From IMG/VR virus record IMGVR_UViG_3300047360_000110, positions 1 to 42,086 of that record: a stretch of 42,086 bases of DNA. The stretch is one strand, 5' to 3'. Origin of the DNA: a virus. Shown piece after piece: positions 1-19,619 of the stretch; positions within the stretch are counted from its first letter, which is position 1, and each line of letters starts with the position of its first letter. Below the pieces are notes generated by a model. It worked only from the letters and a program-made list of their open reading frames with translations, ran no database searches and was not told the origin of the DNA. A program made the translations under genes and the position numbers.

Positions 1-72
1 GAGCTAAAAAAGCAAGCTGTACAAAAATTAATTGACAACGTTGATCACTCGCAAGTGATTGACTATCTGTAG
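1..72 (+). CDS. 3' end of an unidentified gene
   Basis: An open frame enters from the left edge and stops with TAG at 70-72, giving the last 23 residues of a protein that ends QVIDYL. The fragment is rich in Lys, Gln and Asp and is too short to assign to a family. It runs in the same direction as the genes that follow, and about 60 bases, including a promoter-like element, separate it from the next gene. Its start lies outside the window. Confidence 0.5.
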   Translation, partial: ELKKQAVQKLIDNVDHSQVIDYL

Positions 73-135: not shown

Positions 136-732
136 ATGACGTTAAACGACAAGTTAACAACAATACAAACAAAGTTTAAATCTAAAAAATCTAGGTTTAA
201 CTCATTCGGCAAATACTACTTTAGATCAGCCGAAGACATTCTCGAAGCTACTAAACCCTTTTTAAAGGAGCTAGGTATAACGGTAACGATAAACGAAAAA
301 GTTGTCGATGCATTCGGCAACGACTCGTTACCACCTATGATTGAATCAACAGCAATAATTAGTGATGGCAAAGATAATATCAAAGCCACAGCTATAGTTG
401 GTGTTGACCTTAACCAGAAAGGTATGCAAACTCCTCAACAGTTTGGTAGTGCCTCGAGCTACGGTAAGAAGTACGCGTTAGGAAATTTATTTCTTATCGA
501 TGATACACAAGATAGCGATGCTACAAACAATCACGGTAAATCAACCAAAGATGTTAAACCATCATTATCAGTAAACACGCAAGCGTTTACAAAGGCAACT
601 GAATACTTAAAGTCAGGCGGTGACATAACTGCTATAACTAAAAAGTATAAAGTAAGTCCTGAAGCGTTGGCTAAATTAAAACAAGCAGAAGTTCATGGAA
701 CAAAAACAAATAGTAAACAAACTGCGCAATGA
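136..732 (+). CDS. erf: ERF-family single-strand annealing recombinase
   Basis: This 198-aa protein matches the ERF superfamily of phage single-strand annealing proteins. The N-terminal half (about 1-133) carries the family hallmarks: a segment with FGKYYFRSAEDI followed by the conserved block GSASSYGKKYALGNLFLI and an acidic DDTQDSD patch. The C-terminal third is Lys/Thr/Ser-rich and probably flexible. ERF proteins anneal complementary single strands during phage recombination and genome circularisation. The next gene is a PD-(D/E)XK exonuclease, which is the usual partner that produces the single strands, and an SSB-like gene follows, so the three form a recombination cassette. The start is the first ATG after the promoter-like element, with no Shine-Dalgarno sequence. 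Confidence 0.88.
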   Translation: MTLNDKLTTIQTKFKSKKSRFNSFGKYYFRSAEDILEATKPFLKELGITVTINEKVVDAFGNDSLPPMIESTAIISDGKDNIKATAIVGVDLNQKGMQTPQQFGSASSYGKKYALGNLFLIDDTQDSDATNNHGKSTKDVKPSLSVNTQAFTKATEYLKSGGDITAITKKYKVSPEALAKLKQAEVHGTKTNSKQTAQ

Positions 733-11678: not shown

Positions 11679-14600
11679 CTATTTTTTTACTTTACGTTTT
11701 TTTACTTTACGTTTTTTTACTTTTCTTTTTTGTGTTTTCTTTTTTTCTTCTTCTATACCTATTTCCCAATCTTGCCAACCACCAAGCAAGGCTAATCTTT
11801 CCCATGTTTCAAGCTCGCTATCAGAAGCTTTAGTAAGGTTGTTTATTTTCTTAACTGCTCTGTCCATAGGTATGTTAGTTGTAGCTGACACCACGTTACC
11901 TACAGCTAAGTAAGCTGGGTTATCTAATCCCCAACCACCATTAATCATTTCATCTTTATCCCACTTAAACGATCTTGCAGCTTGATTTATTTTAGATAAC
12001 TTAGAAGATATAGGTGGAGCTATTCTTTGTAAGTCAGCACCAACCTTTTCGTAATTAGGATTATCTTTTTGTGACTCTTTAACTATACGCATTATAGCGT
12101 TTTTAGTTACTGACAATACGCCTCCTGCCACACCTGTACCTCTTAATAAAGAATCAGCCATGCCATTAGCTATACTAATATACTTATCTTTTTTCTCTTC
12201 ATCTTCTGGCTCTTCATCATCAAAAGCAAAAGCAAACAAAGCTTGTTGCAAAGCGTTAAATAATAAGTTTTGTACAGTAGAGTAATAAATTATTTTACTT
12301 ATGTTTGTTTTTCTATCACCTCTATTGTTTTTAAGATCACGTACAGATTTGTCTATTATTCTAGCATACTGAGATGGTGTGTTTTGAAAAGCTAGTATTA
12401 ATCTACCAAGCGGACCAGCTTGTTGCATTGATATACGGTCTGGTCTTGATGATTGCTGTGACTCTTCAGCTGTCTCTCTAAAATCTTCAAACGCTTGAGT
12501 CTCAGCTTCAGCTTGAGACATTCCTTGTTTCATTAAAGATTTTATCCTGTTTCTGTAGAACGTAGCACCACCAGACGCAATAGCAAAACTATCTGCTACT
12601 TGTGTAGGTGTAAAACCAAACTGTAGTAGCTTACTTATTACAGCGCGCGGTCCACCTTTTTTAGCCATGTCAGCAATGTCTGCTTCGTTTACATTCATAC
12701 GTAAACCAGATCTTCTAGCTTTTAAGAAGTCAGAATTTATAAGCTTAGAAAAGTCTGACCAGTATTGTTTTTGATTTGCAAAAGCTTTCGCTGCAGCTAG
12801 CGGGTTGTTATCTGTAAAGTTTAAAAAGTTTATAGAAGATAAATTCTGTAACAACGATGATCTAGAGTTGAAGAACATAATAGCCCCAATACTACCTTGC
12901 AACCAGTCTGTAAATCTAGCTGTTAAACTATCATCAGAGAAATTTCTATTTCGACCAGTCTCCATTCTGCCTAACATGTTCTCCATAGCTTTACGCCACT
13001 TCTTACCGTACGCAGCTTCAAGTTTATTCATATTCTTTTCAGAGAATATAACATCTACATTGTTTTGCCATTGAGTTAAATACTTAGCTCTAACACCTGT
13101 ATTTATACTTTCTTGTATGTCAGTTGTTATTGTACCAGCTGGCCAACCTTCTTTAGGTTTAGTGTATTCACCTTTTTGTATAGCAATGACTTGGTCAGCA
13201 AACACTTGAAGATCAGCGTTTTCGGTTACATACTCTGTTAACTCTTTTAAATCTTGCTTACTAATACCAGGAACCTCATAACCTAGTTTGTTCCAAATAT
13301 AAACACGTACAGCTTGCTCGCGGCTATATGGTTCACCAGGTATTTTCTTGCGTAGGTTTTTAGGTACAAAGCCTAATTGTTTTTTCAAAGCTCTGTAGTC
13401 CTGCATAACGCTGAGTCTAGCATTATCAATATCATTAACAGCTCTAGCGTAAGGATCTATTAAGTGTTTTTTGTACCAAGCCATTTGAGCGTCGCCAAGT
13501 TTACCTTTGCTAAGAGTTTCGTATAGTAAACCTATAAAGTCTTGAGCTGAGTATGGTATACCTCTAAACACTCTGCCAAGCGATGCTCCAGCTACCTCTG
13601 CTTTTACTTTCTTGTATTCTTTTTCAGATGCAATACCAGTTGTTTGTTCTAATATTGTATTAAAATCTGCGTCTAGTTTTTCTGGACTGCTAGCTTTTCT
13701 AAACGCTTGTTGTGTTTTTGATTTAACATCTAAAACTTCTAATGCGTTTTGTACAGCTTTAACATTTTTATAAGCGTCATCTGCAAAGTAAAAATCATTG
13801 TAACCCTCTGCAGCTTTACCTACAACCCATCGCGCTTTAGCTTCAGGCGTACTATTACCTAAACCTACAATATTTTTAAGAGGTATGTCTAAACCTATCG
13901 CTTTTAAAAACTCATGTATAGGCTCTGCAGCTGCCTGTGTTCTAGCTGTAAGAATAAATACATTATTATTACCAAACTTTCTATTACGAGCTACGGCTTT
14001 TTCAAACATAGGACCTTTAGCTCCTTTAGTAACCTTTTCAAACTCACTAAAATCAAACTCAGCTCCTTGCTGAAGCATATCTTCACCTTGCTTAGCAAAT
14101 TCTTCTGCGTTTAAAACACCTTCTGTTCCATCAGGCATTGTGTATAGTACGTTAGATTTAGTTGTAGCAAGTGTATCGTCAAAATCCCACACGCTTATGC
14201 CTTTAGGTTTAGCGCTTGCTTTTCTAGCATTAGCTATAGCCGTGTCTATCGTGTCCATCACAGCGATAGTTTGTTCAACTGGACTACCAGGGACTTTAGC
14301 CATTACTTGTAACTTTTGCTCTGCATCAAGAGCTTCGTAAGAAGTAAGTTTGCCTGCTTTAACAGCATCAGAATTAGCTTGCTCAGGAAACATTTGTCTA
14401 GCAACGACATCAACCATACCAAAAGGATCGAAAGTGCTAGGGTCTTCTATACGAACATTGCTAGGTATTTTACTATTATTTCTAGACGATGCCTTTGATT
14501 TAGATTTTAACTTAGTAAATTCATTTAAATACTTTTGAGCGCTTTCAGGAGTTCGGTTACCTTGAATAACTTCAGCTACCAATTGATTTTGTTGTGCAAC

Positions 14601-17600
14601 ATTAGTAGCGTTTATGTTAGCTACATCTAATGATACACCTAATTCCTCAGCTAACGACTTACCAGTATCGTAGTTTATAATACTATTTAAATCAATACCA
14701 GCTTGAGCAAGTCTTATAGCTGGGTTGTCTAGTATAGTATAACCTTCTGGAAGCACAGCAGCTAAATTAGCTTTGTCTAACTTATAATCATCTGCTTTAG
14801 ATAGTCTTGTTTGATAGTAATTTTTTTTAATAGCTGGCATTATAATGTTAGTAGTGCCAGTTGAAAACCCAAAAATTATAGAGCTACCAATTACTGAGGC
14901 TGGAGGATTGTGTTCTTCCCTGTATTTAGCGCCAGTTCTTTGTTCTGGCTTAGCCTCTTTAGACGCGTACGCTTCTGTTTTAGATTTATATCTAAATGGC
15001 GCGGCTATTTTAATTAAACCGCTAGTAGCTTGGTAACCTTGAAGTATAACCATAGACGCTAACGAGCTAGGCATACCGGATTTTATAGCTGAGTCAAGCT
15101 GCATAACAACATCCTCTAACACTTCCATGTTAACTTTAGCTTGCGCTTTACCAGCATCTGTGTCAGCAGCTTTAACAGTAACTCTTTTGGCTACCTTGTC
15201 TTCAATTCCACCTAGATTTTCTTTTGCTGCAGCTAAAGCTTCTATGTATGCTGGATCTTTAACACCGTAATATAACTTTCCTCTAGCTGGTAAAAGCGTA
15301 ACACCCTCGCCAAACTGTTCTACAACTTGCTCAGCAGTAGGTTGACTAAATAATTTTTTACCATTTTTGTTTTTTCTAATTTTACCATCATCATCGCGTC
15401 TAGGTATACCCATTATCTCTCCACCGTTGCTGAGTTTATAATAAACATTACCATCAGCTTTTCTTTCATACCTAGATCCGCTAGAAGCAAACGCTCCTCC
15501 TAAAAACACATTGGGTCTTAGCTTGTACTTTTTAATGTAGTTAAGAAAATTACGTTGTATTGTAGGTCTAGTGTCATCTTTAACACTAGCGCTTTCTTCA
15601 CCTAAAGTTTTTAAAGTTGTATTAATGTTTTGAGCTACAGAAACAGCTATTAATTTTTCAGCTTGTTTAGGTGTTAGTGTATCTCTAACTTTTGCACGTG
15701 TACTAAATTTAGCACCAGCTCTAGCTCTTTCAGGTTTACTAGGTATAAGATCTTCAACCATACGGTTTCTAATGCTAGTATTAAATAACCCTCGTATAGT
15801 TTGACCTACTCTATCTCTGTAAATAGGTTTAACAGGTTTCTCTCTAATGATATTTAAATAATCTTTTAGTGTGCCTGTTAGCTCGCCATCTGTGTACAGA
15901 GCATTCATTACATTATTAGGTATAAACGTAGCTTTACCAAAGTCATCTTTAGTTTTTGGTAATCTAGCAAAGTCGCTAGTAGCGTTATCTATTAAGTATT
16001 GCTTTACACGTGTTAAACCTTCACTATCTTTCTTAGAGTAATTACGTTTTTTATCATATATAGTTTCTGGATTTACACCAAACATTTTACCATATATCTC
16101 TGCAACAGTAACTGGTACGTTTTTAGTTTGACCAAACCTTGTAATGTCTTGACCTTTGAACGCTTTGTTAGTAGCATCTGATATTTGTTTTTCAGCTTCA
16201 GCTTTATTCTTTACACCTAAATTAGTTAACACTGTGTCGCTAAACCTAGTTGTTTCGGTAGGTTTTCTTGGACCTTTAGCTTCTTTAGTAACTTCTACTG
16301 TAGCTTCTTCGGCTACAACACCTCTAGCCTCTGTAACGTCTTCTGTGAACTCTTCACCTAAAATTCTATTAGAAGCTTCAATAGCTCTTGCTGGTAGAAA
16401 CTTGTTTATGTAAGCTGCTAATGGTACACCTGATTCAGGATCATACTCGCTAATTAAATCTATTATACCACGCTTACCTGTTTCTATTTCGTCTGTAAGT
16501 AGTTGTCTATCAAACCCTGGCGCTTCAGACCTACGCTCAACTAGTTTGCTAGTAATAGGTTTAAACTGTTCTATAACTTCAAACGCTCCAGCTGTACCTT
16601 GCTGATCGTATATTTCTTGAACCTTTTGAGATGCTTCAGTTTGAGTTGAAGCTTTGCTAGTCGGTTGAGTAACCTCAACATCTTCATCTACTTGAGTAAG
16701 AGTACCTAGTGCTCCTTGCTCTGCTGTAGCTACAACTTGCTCGCTAATTTTACCTTTAATTAAACTTTTGTTGTAGTCTTTAATAAAGTTAATTACATCT
16801 TTACCCTCGTTAAACACAACTCTAGCTTTACTGTCTCCAAATATTTTATCTAAACCTCTTTTAATTTTATCTACAATAGTTTCTTTTATAACTATGTCAC
16901 CATTAATAACAGCTTCGCTTAACAATGTTAAACCTTCTTCGAACGCATCATCTTTACTTATCTGACCTTTATTAGCTTTATCTAAATAACCAGCTAATCT
17001 TTGTTTATATTCCGGTGTAACTAGTGTAGTATTAACATTATTTAAAGCTTCTATAACAGCTACACCTAATTGTGTTGCAGATCCAGGATTATCAGCTACT
17101 GTTTTTAATAACACAGCATGTAATAACTCGTGTGCTTTAGTGGTTATAACATTGTCTTTTTTATTAGCTTCTTCGTTGTAAAGTATTACGGTTTCACCTT
17201 TGTCGTTAAACAATATAGTGCCGTAGTTTTGAGAATCTTTTTCGTCTACTACAAAACCTTGTTCTTGAAGCTTTTTTATTTTGCTTTTAGCCTCTGTTTC
17301 ATCTTTAGCTGTATCTGTCTTAACGCCTAATTTTTTAGCAAGAGCTTCAGTTGATTTTGCTATTTTAGCTTCTGTCTCAGCTCTACTTTTTTGAACTCTT
17401 GAATCGGCTATTTGCTCGTCAATAAGTTTTATTTCTTCATCTATTTCACCTCTAAAAGACGGATCAAGATTTTTTCTTTTGTCTAGTAAATTTTGCTTTT
17501 GAACTACAAGATCTAATTGTTCAGCTGTTACGTTTTCTGGAGACACAGCTGCAGCTCTAATTATATTTCTAGTAAAGTACTCAGCATTGTTAAGCTGTTC

Positions 17601-19619
17601 TACCATTTCAGTATCTTCCATGTTTTCCGCTATAGATTTTTGATACTTTATTTGATCTAATAAAAGTGTTTGGTTTTTTATAACACCTTTGTAAACTTGA
17701 TCCTTAGCTGCGTTAAAAGTTTTAACTGTACCTACAGTTTGTAAACCACCTGATAAAGCGAGCGTGCCTGCTAGTAAGGTTTTTTGTTCTCTTATAAAAT
17801 CATTATAATCAGGTAATCCTAAATTAAAACCTAAATTATTTGCCAACTGAAAAGCGTACTCTACTTGCTCTTCACCGTACTCTTTAGCAACGTTAGACAC
17901 AAAAGCAGAAGACGCTTTTGATATAGCCTGTTTGTTCGCGGCTGACTTTAAGTTACCTCTAAAGTTTTGTAGCAAGTTTTTACCAGCGCTAGATTTTAAA
18001 AAGTTTATATCAGGCATAACAGACTGGGCTAAACCTGTAGCTAATGAAGCCATAGATCCATAAGCCAAGGCTTGTTCGGGAGTTAAACCATCTGCTTCGC
18101 CTTGTTTAATATTATCAGCAACCGTCATTTTAAAAGCCGCGTTAGCCATGGTAATATCTCGCTTAAGCTTATCGCTTAAACCAAAAACTCTACCTTTTTT
18201 ACCACCAATAGTATTACCTATTAATTTTTCTACACCTTTTAAATCACCTTTTCTAGCAGAAGCCATAATGCCCAACGTAAAAGGTAACATGTCAGCTGTC
18301 ATTTTTACATACGCTAAAGGGTCTTTTACATATTTACCATCTTCATCTAAAACTTCAGCTTGTCCAACTTCACCCATTACGTTATAGTTAGTTAAATTAT
18401 CAGCTGTATCTTTAAACGCATCAAAGTAACTATAACTATTTGGATCTGTAAACATATCTCCAACAGTGCTTAAAACCAACGCAGGAAAATTTAATAATAC
18501 TTCTCCACCTGTTTTAAATATACCACCTCCAAGTCTAGAAGTTAAGTCAGTAACGTCTCCAGGTATTGTCACGCCTAAAAGCTTACTATCTTCACTTATA
18601 GATTTGTTGTATTCTTTTATATCGTCAGTTAACTGAAAGTTGTTTTCAATAAAACCTTTAGCTAAGTTAACACCATACTCTGCGTTCAGTGAATTAATAT
18701 CTTGCTCGTAGGTTTCTACTAAAGTTTTTCTACTCTCATTTAAACTATCAGCATTAGATTTTAAAGTTTTTAATTTATCTATTAAATTATTATATAAATC
18801 TGCAGAAGCCTGAGTAGCTATTATAGGTTTACCGTTATCAAAATTAAAAGTAGAGTTTATTCTATCTTGTACAGCTTTAGCTTCAGATTTTATAGGATCA
18901 TATTGCTTGTCATAATCTTCTAGAGCACTTTGAAAATCATTTTCTAAAGTAGATAAAGATCTATCAATAACACTACCTTTAGCTTTTTTTATAATGCTTT
19001 CTTTTTCTTTTAAATTTAAAAAACCTTTTCTAGCTTTTTCTAATGTTCTAGAGTCTAAGTCTTTAGCTATTTCTATTCTAGTAAATAAATCTAAATTTAA
19101 AGGCTCATAAGTTGATTCTTCATCTTTACTTTTTGTAGCACTAAAAAGCTTACCTAGCTGACCTAAATAACCTAAAAAGCCTTGGTCTTTAGTGCTAGAA
19201 AACTCACCTGTATCTTTTTGTATTTGTTCAAAAGCCTCTTCATATTCTGGAGATAAAACTAAATCTTTCCAGTAAGAAAAAGGTTTTGGAGCGTCAGCTG
19301 TTACAACAACTTCATCAAGCTCTACTGGTTGCTGCATTATGGCGGCTTCTTCTAAAGCGTTTAATTTTCTTCTTTTTAATATAGCTTCTTGTGAATTATC
19401 TATTGGTTGTGATTCCGAAGAAATATCTACCGATTCTGATTCCGTACTCTCGGGTGCTGTCCCGGTTGTCGGTGTTACAGTTGCACCCTCGTCCGCAACA
19501 CCGTTTGTCTTTCCCTCTTCTTCTACAACTTCTACAGCGTCAGGAAAAGTATCTTTAAACTCTTTTACTTTATCTTCTGGAAGATCGTAAATAGTTTCAC
19601 CAACTTTAAATGTAAACAT
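11679..19619 (-). CDS. Giant polyvalent internal virion / DNA-ejection protein
   Basis: This 2646-aa protein is by far the largest here. It opens with FKVGETIYDLP and a disordered acidic region (30-110). Residues 440-660 have several hydrophobic Gly/Ala-rich helices that could enter membranes. A gluzincin-like metalloprotease motif HELLH lies at 830-834, with Glu894/895/902 as possible third ligand. Residues about 1025-1090 resemble sigma-70 region 2. A HAD-type phosphatase lies at about 1805-1965 (DFDDT at 1812-1816, LTART, ADD). The end is helical with a KKRKV-rich tail. By size, position after tail genes and domain mix, it matches polyvalent proteins packed in phage heads and injected with DNA, analogous to T7 gp16. 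The enzymatic roles are inferred. Confidence 0.82.
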   Translation of the reverse strand: MFTFKVGETIYDLPEDKVKEFKDTFPDAVEVVEEEGKTNGVADEGATVTPTTGTAPESTESESVDISSESQPIDNSQEAILKRRKLNALEEAAIMQQPVELDEVVVTADAPKPFSYWKDLVLSPEYEEAFEQIQKDTGEFSSTKDQGFLGYLGQLGKLFSATKSKDEESTYEPLNLDLFTRIEIAKDLDSRTLEKARKGFLNLKEKESIIKKAKGSVIDRSLSTLENDFQSALEDYDKQYDPIKSEAKAVQDRINSTFNFDNGKPIIATQASADLYNNLIDKLKTLKSNADSLNESRKTLVETYEQDINSLNAEYGVNLAKGFIENNFQLTDDIKEYNKSISEDSKLLGVTIPGDVTDLTSRLGGGIFKTGGEVLLNFPALVLSTVGDMFTDPNSYSYFDAFKDTADNLTNYNVMGEVGQAEVLDEDGKYVKDPLAYVKMTADMLPFTLGIMASARKGDLKGVEKLIGNTIGGKKGRVFGLSDKLKRDITMANAAFKMTVADNIKQGEADGLTPEQALAYGSMASLATGLAQSVMPDINFLKSSAGKNLLQNFRGNLKSAANKQAISKASSAFVSNVAKEYGEEQVEYAFQLANNLGFNLGLPDYNDFIREQKTLLAGTLALSGGLQTVGTVKTFNAAKDQVYKGVIKNQTLLLDQIKYQKSIAENMEDTEMVEQLNNAEYFTRNIIRAAAVSPENVTAEQLDLVVQKQNLLDKRKNLDPSFRGEIDEEIKLIDEQIADSRVQKSRAETEAKIAKSTEALAKKLGVKTDTAKDETEAKSKIKKLQEQGFVVDEKDSQNYGTILFNDKGETVILYNEEANKKDNVITTKAHELLHAVLLKTVADNPGSATQLGVAVIEALNNVNTTLVTPEYKQRLAGYLDKANKGQISKDDAFEEGLTLLSEAVINGDIVIKETIVDKIKRGLDKIFGDSKARVVFNEGKDVINFIKDYNKSLIKGKISEQVVATAEQGALGTLTQVDEDVEVTQPTSKASTQTEASQKVQEIYDQQGTAGAFEVIEQFKPITSKLVERRSEAPGFDRQLLTDEIETGKRGIIDLISEYDPESGVPLAAYINKFLPARAIEASNRILGEEFTEDVTEARGVVAEEATVEVTKEAKGPRKPTETTRFSDTVLTNLGVKNKAEAEKQISDATNKAFKGQDITRFGQTKNVPVTVAEIYGKMFGVNPETIYDKKRNYSKKDSEGLTRVKQYLIDNATSDFARLPKTKDDFGKATFIPNNVMNALYTDGELTGTLKDYLNIIREKPVKPIYRDRVGQTIRGLFNTSIRNRMVEDLIPSKPERARAGAKFSTRAKVRDTLTPKQAEKLIAVSVAQNINTTLKTLGEESASVKDDTRPTIQRNFLNYIKKYKLRPNVFLGGAFASSGSRYERKADGNVYYKLSNGGEIMGIPRRDDDGKIRKNKNGKKLFSQPTAEQVVEQFGEGVTLLPARGKLYYGVKDPAYIEALAAAKENLGGIEDKVAKRVTVKAADTDAGKAQAKVNMEVLEDVVMQLDSAIKSGMPSSLASMVILQGYQATSGLIKIAAPFRYKSKTEAYASKEAKPEQRTGAKYREEHNPPASVIGSSIIFGFSTGTTNIIMPAIKKNYYQTRLSKADDYKLDKANLAAVLPEGYTILDNPAIRLAQAGIDLNSIINYDTGKSLAEELGVSLDVANINATNVAQQNQLVAEVIQGNRTPESAQKYLNEFTKLKSKSKASSRNNSKIPSNVRIEDPSTFDPFGMVDVVARQMFPEQANSDAVKAGKLTSYEALDAEQKLQVMAKVPGSPVEQTIAVMDTIDTAIANARKASAKPKGISVWDFDDTLATTKSNVLYTMPDGTEGVLNAEEFAKQGEDMLQQGAEFDFSEFEKVTKGAKGPMFEKAVARNRKFGNNNVFILTARTQAAAEPIHEFLKAIGLDIPLKNIVGLGNSTPEAKARWVVGKAAEGYNDFYFADDAYKNVKAVQNALEVLDVKSKTQQAFRKASSPEKLDADFNTILEQTTGIASEKEYKKVKAEVAGASLGRVFRGIPYSAQDFIGLLYETLSKGKLGDAQMAWYKKHLIDPYARAVNDIDNARLSVMQDYRALKKQLGFVPKNLRKKIPGEPYSREQAVRVYIWNKLGYEVPGISKQDLKELTEYVTENADLQVFADQVIAIQKGEYTKPKEGWPAGTITTDIQESINTGVRAKYLTQWQNNVDVIFSEKNMNKLEAAYGKKWRKAMENMLGRMETGRNRNFSDDSLTARFTDWLQGSIGAIMFFNSRSSLLQNLSSINFLNFTDNNPLAAAKAFANQKQYWSDFSKLINSDFLKARRSGLRMNVNEADIADMAKKGGPRAVISKLLQFGFTPTQVADSFAIASGGATFYRNRIKSLMKQGMSQAEAETQAFEDFRETAEESQQSSRPDRISMQQAGPLGRLILAFQNTPSQYARIIDKSVRDLKNNRGDRKTNISKIIYYSTVQNLLFNALQQALFAFAFDDEEPEDEEKKDKYISIANGMADSLLRGTGVAGGVLSVTKNAIMRIVKESQKDNPNYEKVGADLQRIAPPISSKLSKINQAARSFKWDKDEMINGGWGLDNPAYLAVGNVVSATTNIPMDRAVKKINNLTKASDSELETWERLALLGGWQDWEIGIEEEKKKTQKRKVKKRKVKKRKVKK
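11682..11726. repeat. Three 15-bp tandem repeats encoding KKRKV units
   Basis: A 15-base unit TTTTTTTACTTTACG (as read on +) occurs twice exactly and a third time with changes, at the 3' end of the giant gene. On the - strand it encodes repeated KKRKV at the extreme C-terminus. Each unit contains a run of seven T, so slippage could change copy number. Confidence 0.85.

Follow-up and report, generated by a model that had tools for sequence, protein, structure and literature searches.

To our knowledge, the takeover of host transcription within the first minute of infection by phages without a polymerase of their own is poorly known beyond a few models. The N4-type virion RNA polymerase and the virion RNA polymerase of jumbo phages are transcription-related proteins that are delivered with the DNA and act at once. 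The polyvalent proteins of phages and conjugative elements are giant multidomain polypeptides with an HExxH zincin-like peptidase domain, for which delivery together with the DNA is supposed (Iyer et al. 2017, PMC5512222). The word 'sigma' is absent from the main text of this catalogue, which thus names no sigma2-like domain there under that term (PMC5512222), and a survey of jumbo phages brings up sigma factors and polyvalent proteins independently of each other (PMC7824862). AR9 gp226 is described as a phage protein with a sigma2-like domain of vanishingly low sequence similarity to sigma (PMC9209446). A literature search that reached a minority of subscription papers brought up no account of an ejected phage protein that carries a sigma-like domain.

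Here we analyse a stretch of viral DNA of 42,086 nucleotides (IMG/VR record IMGVR_UViG_3300047360_000110), referred to as the window, in which an earlier note made from the letters alone had pointed out a sigma-70 region 2-like segment inside a giant protein. This observation is confirmed, and in a stronger form than that in which it was first put.

Results

Position of the sigma-like domain in a giant structural-module protein

The ORF at 11679..19619 on the minus strand encodes 2646 aa, is the last gene of the structural module and specifies a probable virion or ejected multidomain protein of the polyvalent type. The segment had been placed at 16350-16547 of the minus strand, corresponding to residues 1025-1090 of this ORF, and coordinates, strand and residue numbers proved correct, as did the letters given for residues 1051-1070 (GIIDLISEYDPESGVPLAAY) and 1071-1086 (INKFLPARAIEASNRI). 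The segment is genuine, although it was drawn too short: the first helix had been omitted, and the domain starts at about residue 994. AlphaFold2 (AF2), Foldseek, VIA-align and hhalign point to a sigma region 1.2-2-like domain at residues 994-1087 (16359..16640, minus strand), modelled by AF2 as one helical domain of five helices that span residues 995-1087.

The terminase is 62% identical to that of a Manatee Spring phage, 45% to those of the Flavobacterium elemo phages and 38% to that of Cellulophaga phi46:3, and terminase and capsid sequences place the virus with the flavobacterial podoviruses. The structural module closes with large genes in the records of the Manatee Spring, elemo, Panino, phi46:3 and phi38:1 phages, and the giant gene of the window occupies the same position as those of the elemo, Cellulophaga phi38:1 and Manatee Spring phages, elemo gp21 and phi38:1 gp101 being annotated as structural; Gundel_1 differs in that its large structural gene precedes the terminase. 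From the gene position and the structural annotation of same-place giants in cultured relatives, we infer that the giant protein of this marine phage is probably ejected with the DNA.

Three related flavobacterial giants located in the same place (L110 741-12320, L111 20564-31648 and L112 8229-13718) share almost no sequence with the giant of the window. Seven giant proteins from six related phages gave no convincing match to either the family HMM or the sigma HMM. By these two HMMs the related giants lack the sigma-like domain, which implies that virions of this type can do without it and that it belongs to one lineage's version of a fast-changing protein. Sequence comparison further suggests that giant last structural genes have been replaced wholesale among related phages.

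The family of sigma-like giants comprises 105 distinct sequences in the 257 loci scanned, exclusively on viral contigs; each of two scans of bacterial and archaeal genome contigs gave 17 pattern matches and zero relatives, and the giant protein had no match at 1e-5 among 50,697 phage records. At least one of the seven genes neighbouring the giant in the window is present at 88 of 108 loci (L001-L108, which include repeats of the same contigs). In viral metagenomes this is a large family, and the phages related to it through terminase and capsid have flavobacteria as hosts. Within the giants, the sigma-like domain is the most conserved part and lies far above its flanks, as expected for a surface fitted to a conserved partner.

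Predicted fold

The earlier note had proposed structure prediction as a check, and this yielded a sigma region 1.2-2 fold: without templates, AF2 predicted five helices with pLDDT of about 95 over most of residues 994-1087, a model that shows the helical arrangement of sigma region 2. Sigma factors made up 49 of 50 among the Foldseek matches listed from the PDB, with weak E-values (best 0.43, none at E<=0.001 among the matches listed) and a probability of up to 0.98. All 50 among the VIA-align matches listed were sigma chains, the best spanning 90 residues at 2.8 A with Z 9.1, in a range (Z 6-9) that can be common among helical domains. A second AF2 model, computed for residues 800-1330 from a different, longer alignment, recovered the same fold and again gave 50 of 50 sigma chains among the matches listed, all on the same stretch (best Z 8.5); Foldseek with this 531-aa model produced long, poor alignments (best E 1.6). 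For predicted viral structures, the list was headed by a protein of 1475 aa from an uncultured virus (E 3.8e-3, 23% identity); of the 50 matches listed, 15 bear the name sigma.

Sequence similarity to sigma region 2

Searches with single sequences gave faint signals in the same direction. RpoS ranked first in a phmmer search of the PDB (E 0.58), and tblastn against 50,697 phage records returned two matches, the better of which by E-value was a sigma factor (E 0.5). Of the PHROGs, phrog_1025 (RNA polymerase sigma factor) matched the segment best, sub-threshold in the window with E 0.05. At E<=1 this PHROG was found in 28 of the 46 family members (best 0.0015), and with E-values computed per genome it fell on the segment of the giant protein in 14 of 27 records, including the window (16383-16520, E 1.1e-3). 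The Pfam family Sigma70_r2 (PF04542) matched neither the segment of the window nor any of the 46 members, and nothing at the locus reached its curated cut-off; ordinary membership of this family was rejected on that account.

For profile comparisons, 80 viral loci were reduced by a 92% redundancy filter to an alignment of the window and 45 relatives (A1, 46 members), and a reference HMM was built from 17 genuine sigma region-2 sequences of E. coli, plasmid and phage records. This HMM picked the segment out of the giant protein with 8.3 bits, a score reached by none of 1000 residue shuffles (maximum 3.5). The profile-profile search likewise proposed as a check found the likeness to sigma region 2: hhalign aligned A1 with the 17 sigmas collinearly over 65 columns at a probability of 87.5% (P 3.6e-6), and in neither of two runs of 100 column shuffles was the score of 35.3 equalled (20.8 and 18.7 at best). 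The probability was 88.2% with the full family (106 rows) and rose to 92.5% (P 4.9e-7) when 17 standalone phage sigmas were added to the reference; of the 18 available, L149 was excluded as interrupted by stops. Against 13 bacterial-type sigmas alone it dropped to 21.6% for the family and 9.1% for A1, which speaks against the likeness. Other parts of the giant protein reached 0.08-0.15% against the same sigma profile, and chance similarity was ruled out by the shuffles. Compared with the phages' standalone sigmas alone, A1 gave a non-significant 0.57%, equalled by 14 of 100 shuffles; this too speaks against the likeness, and a recent copy of the phage's own sigma was rejected for this reason. 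Less favourable as well was a search of PDB sequences with the A1 profile, in which a sigma factor came third of four matches (all E 0.3-0.8), ranked below a chain of Cas1 and a designed helical barrel (all three at E 0.3-0.5).

These data also bear on the reading that a convergent helical bundle merely resembles sigma region 2. The weak Foldseek E-values, the middling Z scores and the lack of a Pfam match would agree with it. However, sequence and fold independently and collinearly indicate sigma, while shuffles and neighbouring regions do not, and we regard convergence as very unlikely. The resemblance to sigma region 1.2-2 claimed in the earlier note is thus supported by both sequence profile and predicted fold. 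Altogether, this is a divergent sigma2-like domain, short of a Pfam-grade sigma factor, and its homology to sigma region 2 is highly probable.

Kept and lost positions

In the profile alignment (E. coli sigma70 numbering), G408 and G411 are kept in all 46 members, Y430 in 44, G424 in 40 and D403 in 39, and the F419 position is invariably Tyr. Sigma contacts the beta' clamp through D403, Q406, E407, N409 and M413; in the family, Q406 is replaced by E (45 of 46) and E407 by T (41 of 46), N409 varies, and M413 is exchanged for L, F or I. The residues W433, W434, Q437 and T440, with which sigma melts promoters and reads the -10 element, are represented by Lys (46/46), Phe (45/46), Ala (38/46) and Ile (46/46), respectively. 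By this pattern, the scaffold persists together with part of the helix that faces the polymerase, and the promoter-reading face has been rebuilt into a nearly invariant, family-specific surface, PLAAYINKFLPARAIEAS. A divergent member (L211 6001-6372) has an insertion in the loop matching YDPESG, between two core helices.

That the domain holds host RNA polymerase, one of two roles suggested in the earlier note, is plausible in view of the fold and the kept D403/G408/G411 core. The other, a first promoter-recognition aid, is weakened, since most of the 46 members have K, F, A and I in place of W433, W434, Q437 and T440. Loss of the DNA-melting aromatics makes docking likelier than autonomous promoter reading.

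Other domains of the giant protein

A zinc-metallopeptidase-like domain at residues ~800-950 (16770..17222, minus strand) carries HELLH at residues 830-834 and a conserved Glu895. In 76 of 80 distinct members the sigma-like domain is preceded, at a distance of 138-239 aa, by an HExxH motif; in a second alignment (A2, 62 rows, into which 61 loci entered) H31, E32 and H35 are nearly invariant and the downstream glutamate, E96, is invariant. Pfam support for the peptidase is sub-threshold only. HExxH followed by a downstream Glu is the zincin pattern described for polyvalent proteins (PMC5512222), and this metallopeptidase-like domain is a candidate for self-processing or cleavage of a host protein.

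This near-constant neighbourhood would suit an exapted sigma2 fold that acts in the virion or on DNA, for instance by packing the giant, by securing the leading end of the DNA or by offering the peptidase its cleavage site, and that makes no contact with RNA polymerase. An autoprocessing role has been proposed for zincin domains of polyvalent proteins in the account cited (PMC5512222), and residues for polymerase contact and DNA reading are only partly kept. Against such a function, a near-invariant domain amid widely differing giants suggests a conserved outside partner, and we consider exaptation of this kind rather unlikely.

Directly after the sigma-like domain, the second AF2 model places a helical domain at residues 1128-1218 (15966..16238, minus strand) with pLDDT 85-97 in most blocks and a faint region-3/HTH likeness. 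Aligned by hhalign with sigma region 3-4 it reached a probability of 2.2% (score 17.87) on the region-3 helix-turn-helix, above every shuffle in both runs of 100; in L020 the phrog_1025 match runs past region 2, from 56 to 192 of 214 (E 4.9e-4). We take this as a hint of region-3 likeness. As the earlier note had it, no match to sigma region 4 was found in the giant protein; what was found instead is this weak resemblance to region 3.

It is conceivable that the sigma2-like and sigma3-like domains form an ejected module which guides host RNA polymerase to the first phage promoters, a standalone sigma acting later. A confidently predicted helical domain standing in the order of sigma70 region 3, a region-3 match that beats all shuffles for all its faintness, and the extended phrog_1025 match in L020 speak for it, and AR9 gp226 offers a precedent as a sigma2-like subunit described as having its own mode of promoter reading (PMC9209446). 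Set against this are the loss of the DNA-melting and -10-reading residues, the low region-3 probability together with the region 4 that was not found, and the poor conservation of the downstream helical domain in the family. A promoter-directing function therefore appears unlikely to us, even with the separate sigma gene of related phages and of the window's edge, described below, counted in its favour.

Further downstream, residues 1798-1969 (13713..14228, minus strand) form a HAD-phosphatase-like domain matched by phrog_415 (polynucleotide kinase, E 1.3e-4). Of 54 members with more than 1000 aa beyond the beginning of the sigma-like domain, 28 have the HAD-like motif. With HExxH plus downstream Glu, sigma2-like and HAD-like domains, the giant can be classed from its sequence as polyvalent-type, several putative effector domains being joined in one polypeptide.

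A standalone sigma factor in related phages

A Pfam Sigma70_r2 search of the related records detected a separate ORF of ~253 aa (loci L132-L149) in 18 of the 27 records, with 13 scoring above the cut-off, and since many records are fragments, its absence from others means little. In this standalone ORF region 2 is present; region 4 scored sub-threshold in one of the two tested, the other ORF being truncated. The standalone sigma gene of G019 (65743-66500) contains stops and is divided between two frames. With one standalone sigma as query, 19 of 49 records matched (not all of these records underlie the loci of this study), one of them the window, where the match takes up the outermost bases, 1-69.

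The window begins with the last 23 codons and stop of a standalone sigma-70 family factor (1..72, plus strand), cut by the contig start, whose 23-aa tail is 100% identical to the copies in L141, L137 and L143. In both the window and L141 the gene lies just upstream of that for an Erf-like ssDNA annealing protein (136..732 in the window, plus strand; phrog_155, E 6e-34). Related phages thus seem to possess both a true sigma factor and a sigma-like domain in a giant virion protein. A search for T7-type RNA polymerase (PF00940) was uninformative, being without match in all 27 records and likewise in the control.

Discussion

We propose that a divergent homologue of sigma region 1.2-2 has been built into a giant virion protein beside a metallopeptidase-like domain, and that this protein would be ejected with the DNA. 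Given its fold and the kept D403/G408/G411 core, the domain may dock on the clamp helices of host RNA polymerase, the site of sigma region 2. Once docked, it would compete with host sigma or, as infection begins, place the peptidase and the giant's other domains at RNA polymerase, and the separate true phage sigma would then direct later phage genes. Early docking on host RNA polymerase, whether it blocks host sigma or carries the peptidase there, is the most likely of the roles considered, and we hold it with middling confidence.

In this way the sigma-like domain may give the phage a hold on host transcription as soon as it enters the cell, and its presence in a virion protein makes it a concrete, testable candidate for a pre-made factor that could seize RNA polymerase at that point. 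We see little likelihood of a fuller two-sigma programme, in which an injected sigma2-like plus sigma3-like module would retune host RNA polymerase before phage gene expression and the encoded phage sigma would take over later; if true, it would be the sigma-factor counterpart of the virion-RNAP/non-virion-RNAP strategy.

Compared with known systems, the domain resembles region 1.2-2 of bacterial sigma-70 factors (RpoS, 5h6x; sigma70, 6ca0) in its predicted five-helix fold of ~90 residues, its collinear profile match and the kept positions D403, G408, G411, F419 (as Y), G424 and Y430. It differs from them in that structural alignments give 10-20% identity, that it falls under the Pfam cut-off, that it is devoid of W433, W434, Q437 and T440 with no region 4 found, and that it is embedded in a 2646-aa protein. 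Its remoteness from sigma in sequence recalls AR9 gp226, a likeness drawn from the published description; unlike gp226, a subunit of that phage's own multisubunit non-virion polymerase (PMC9209446), it forms part of a probable virion protein beside a peptidase-like domain. Size, a multidomain make-up, the HExxH zincin-like peptidase and supposed delivery with the DNA are shared with polyvalent proteins (PMC5512222). Finally, the giant parallels the virion RNA polymerases of N4-type and jumbo phages as a putative transcription-related protein delivered with the DNA, but these bring in a complete polymerase, and the giant would supply no more than a sigma-like piece that acts on the polymerase of the host.
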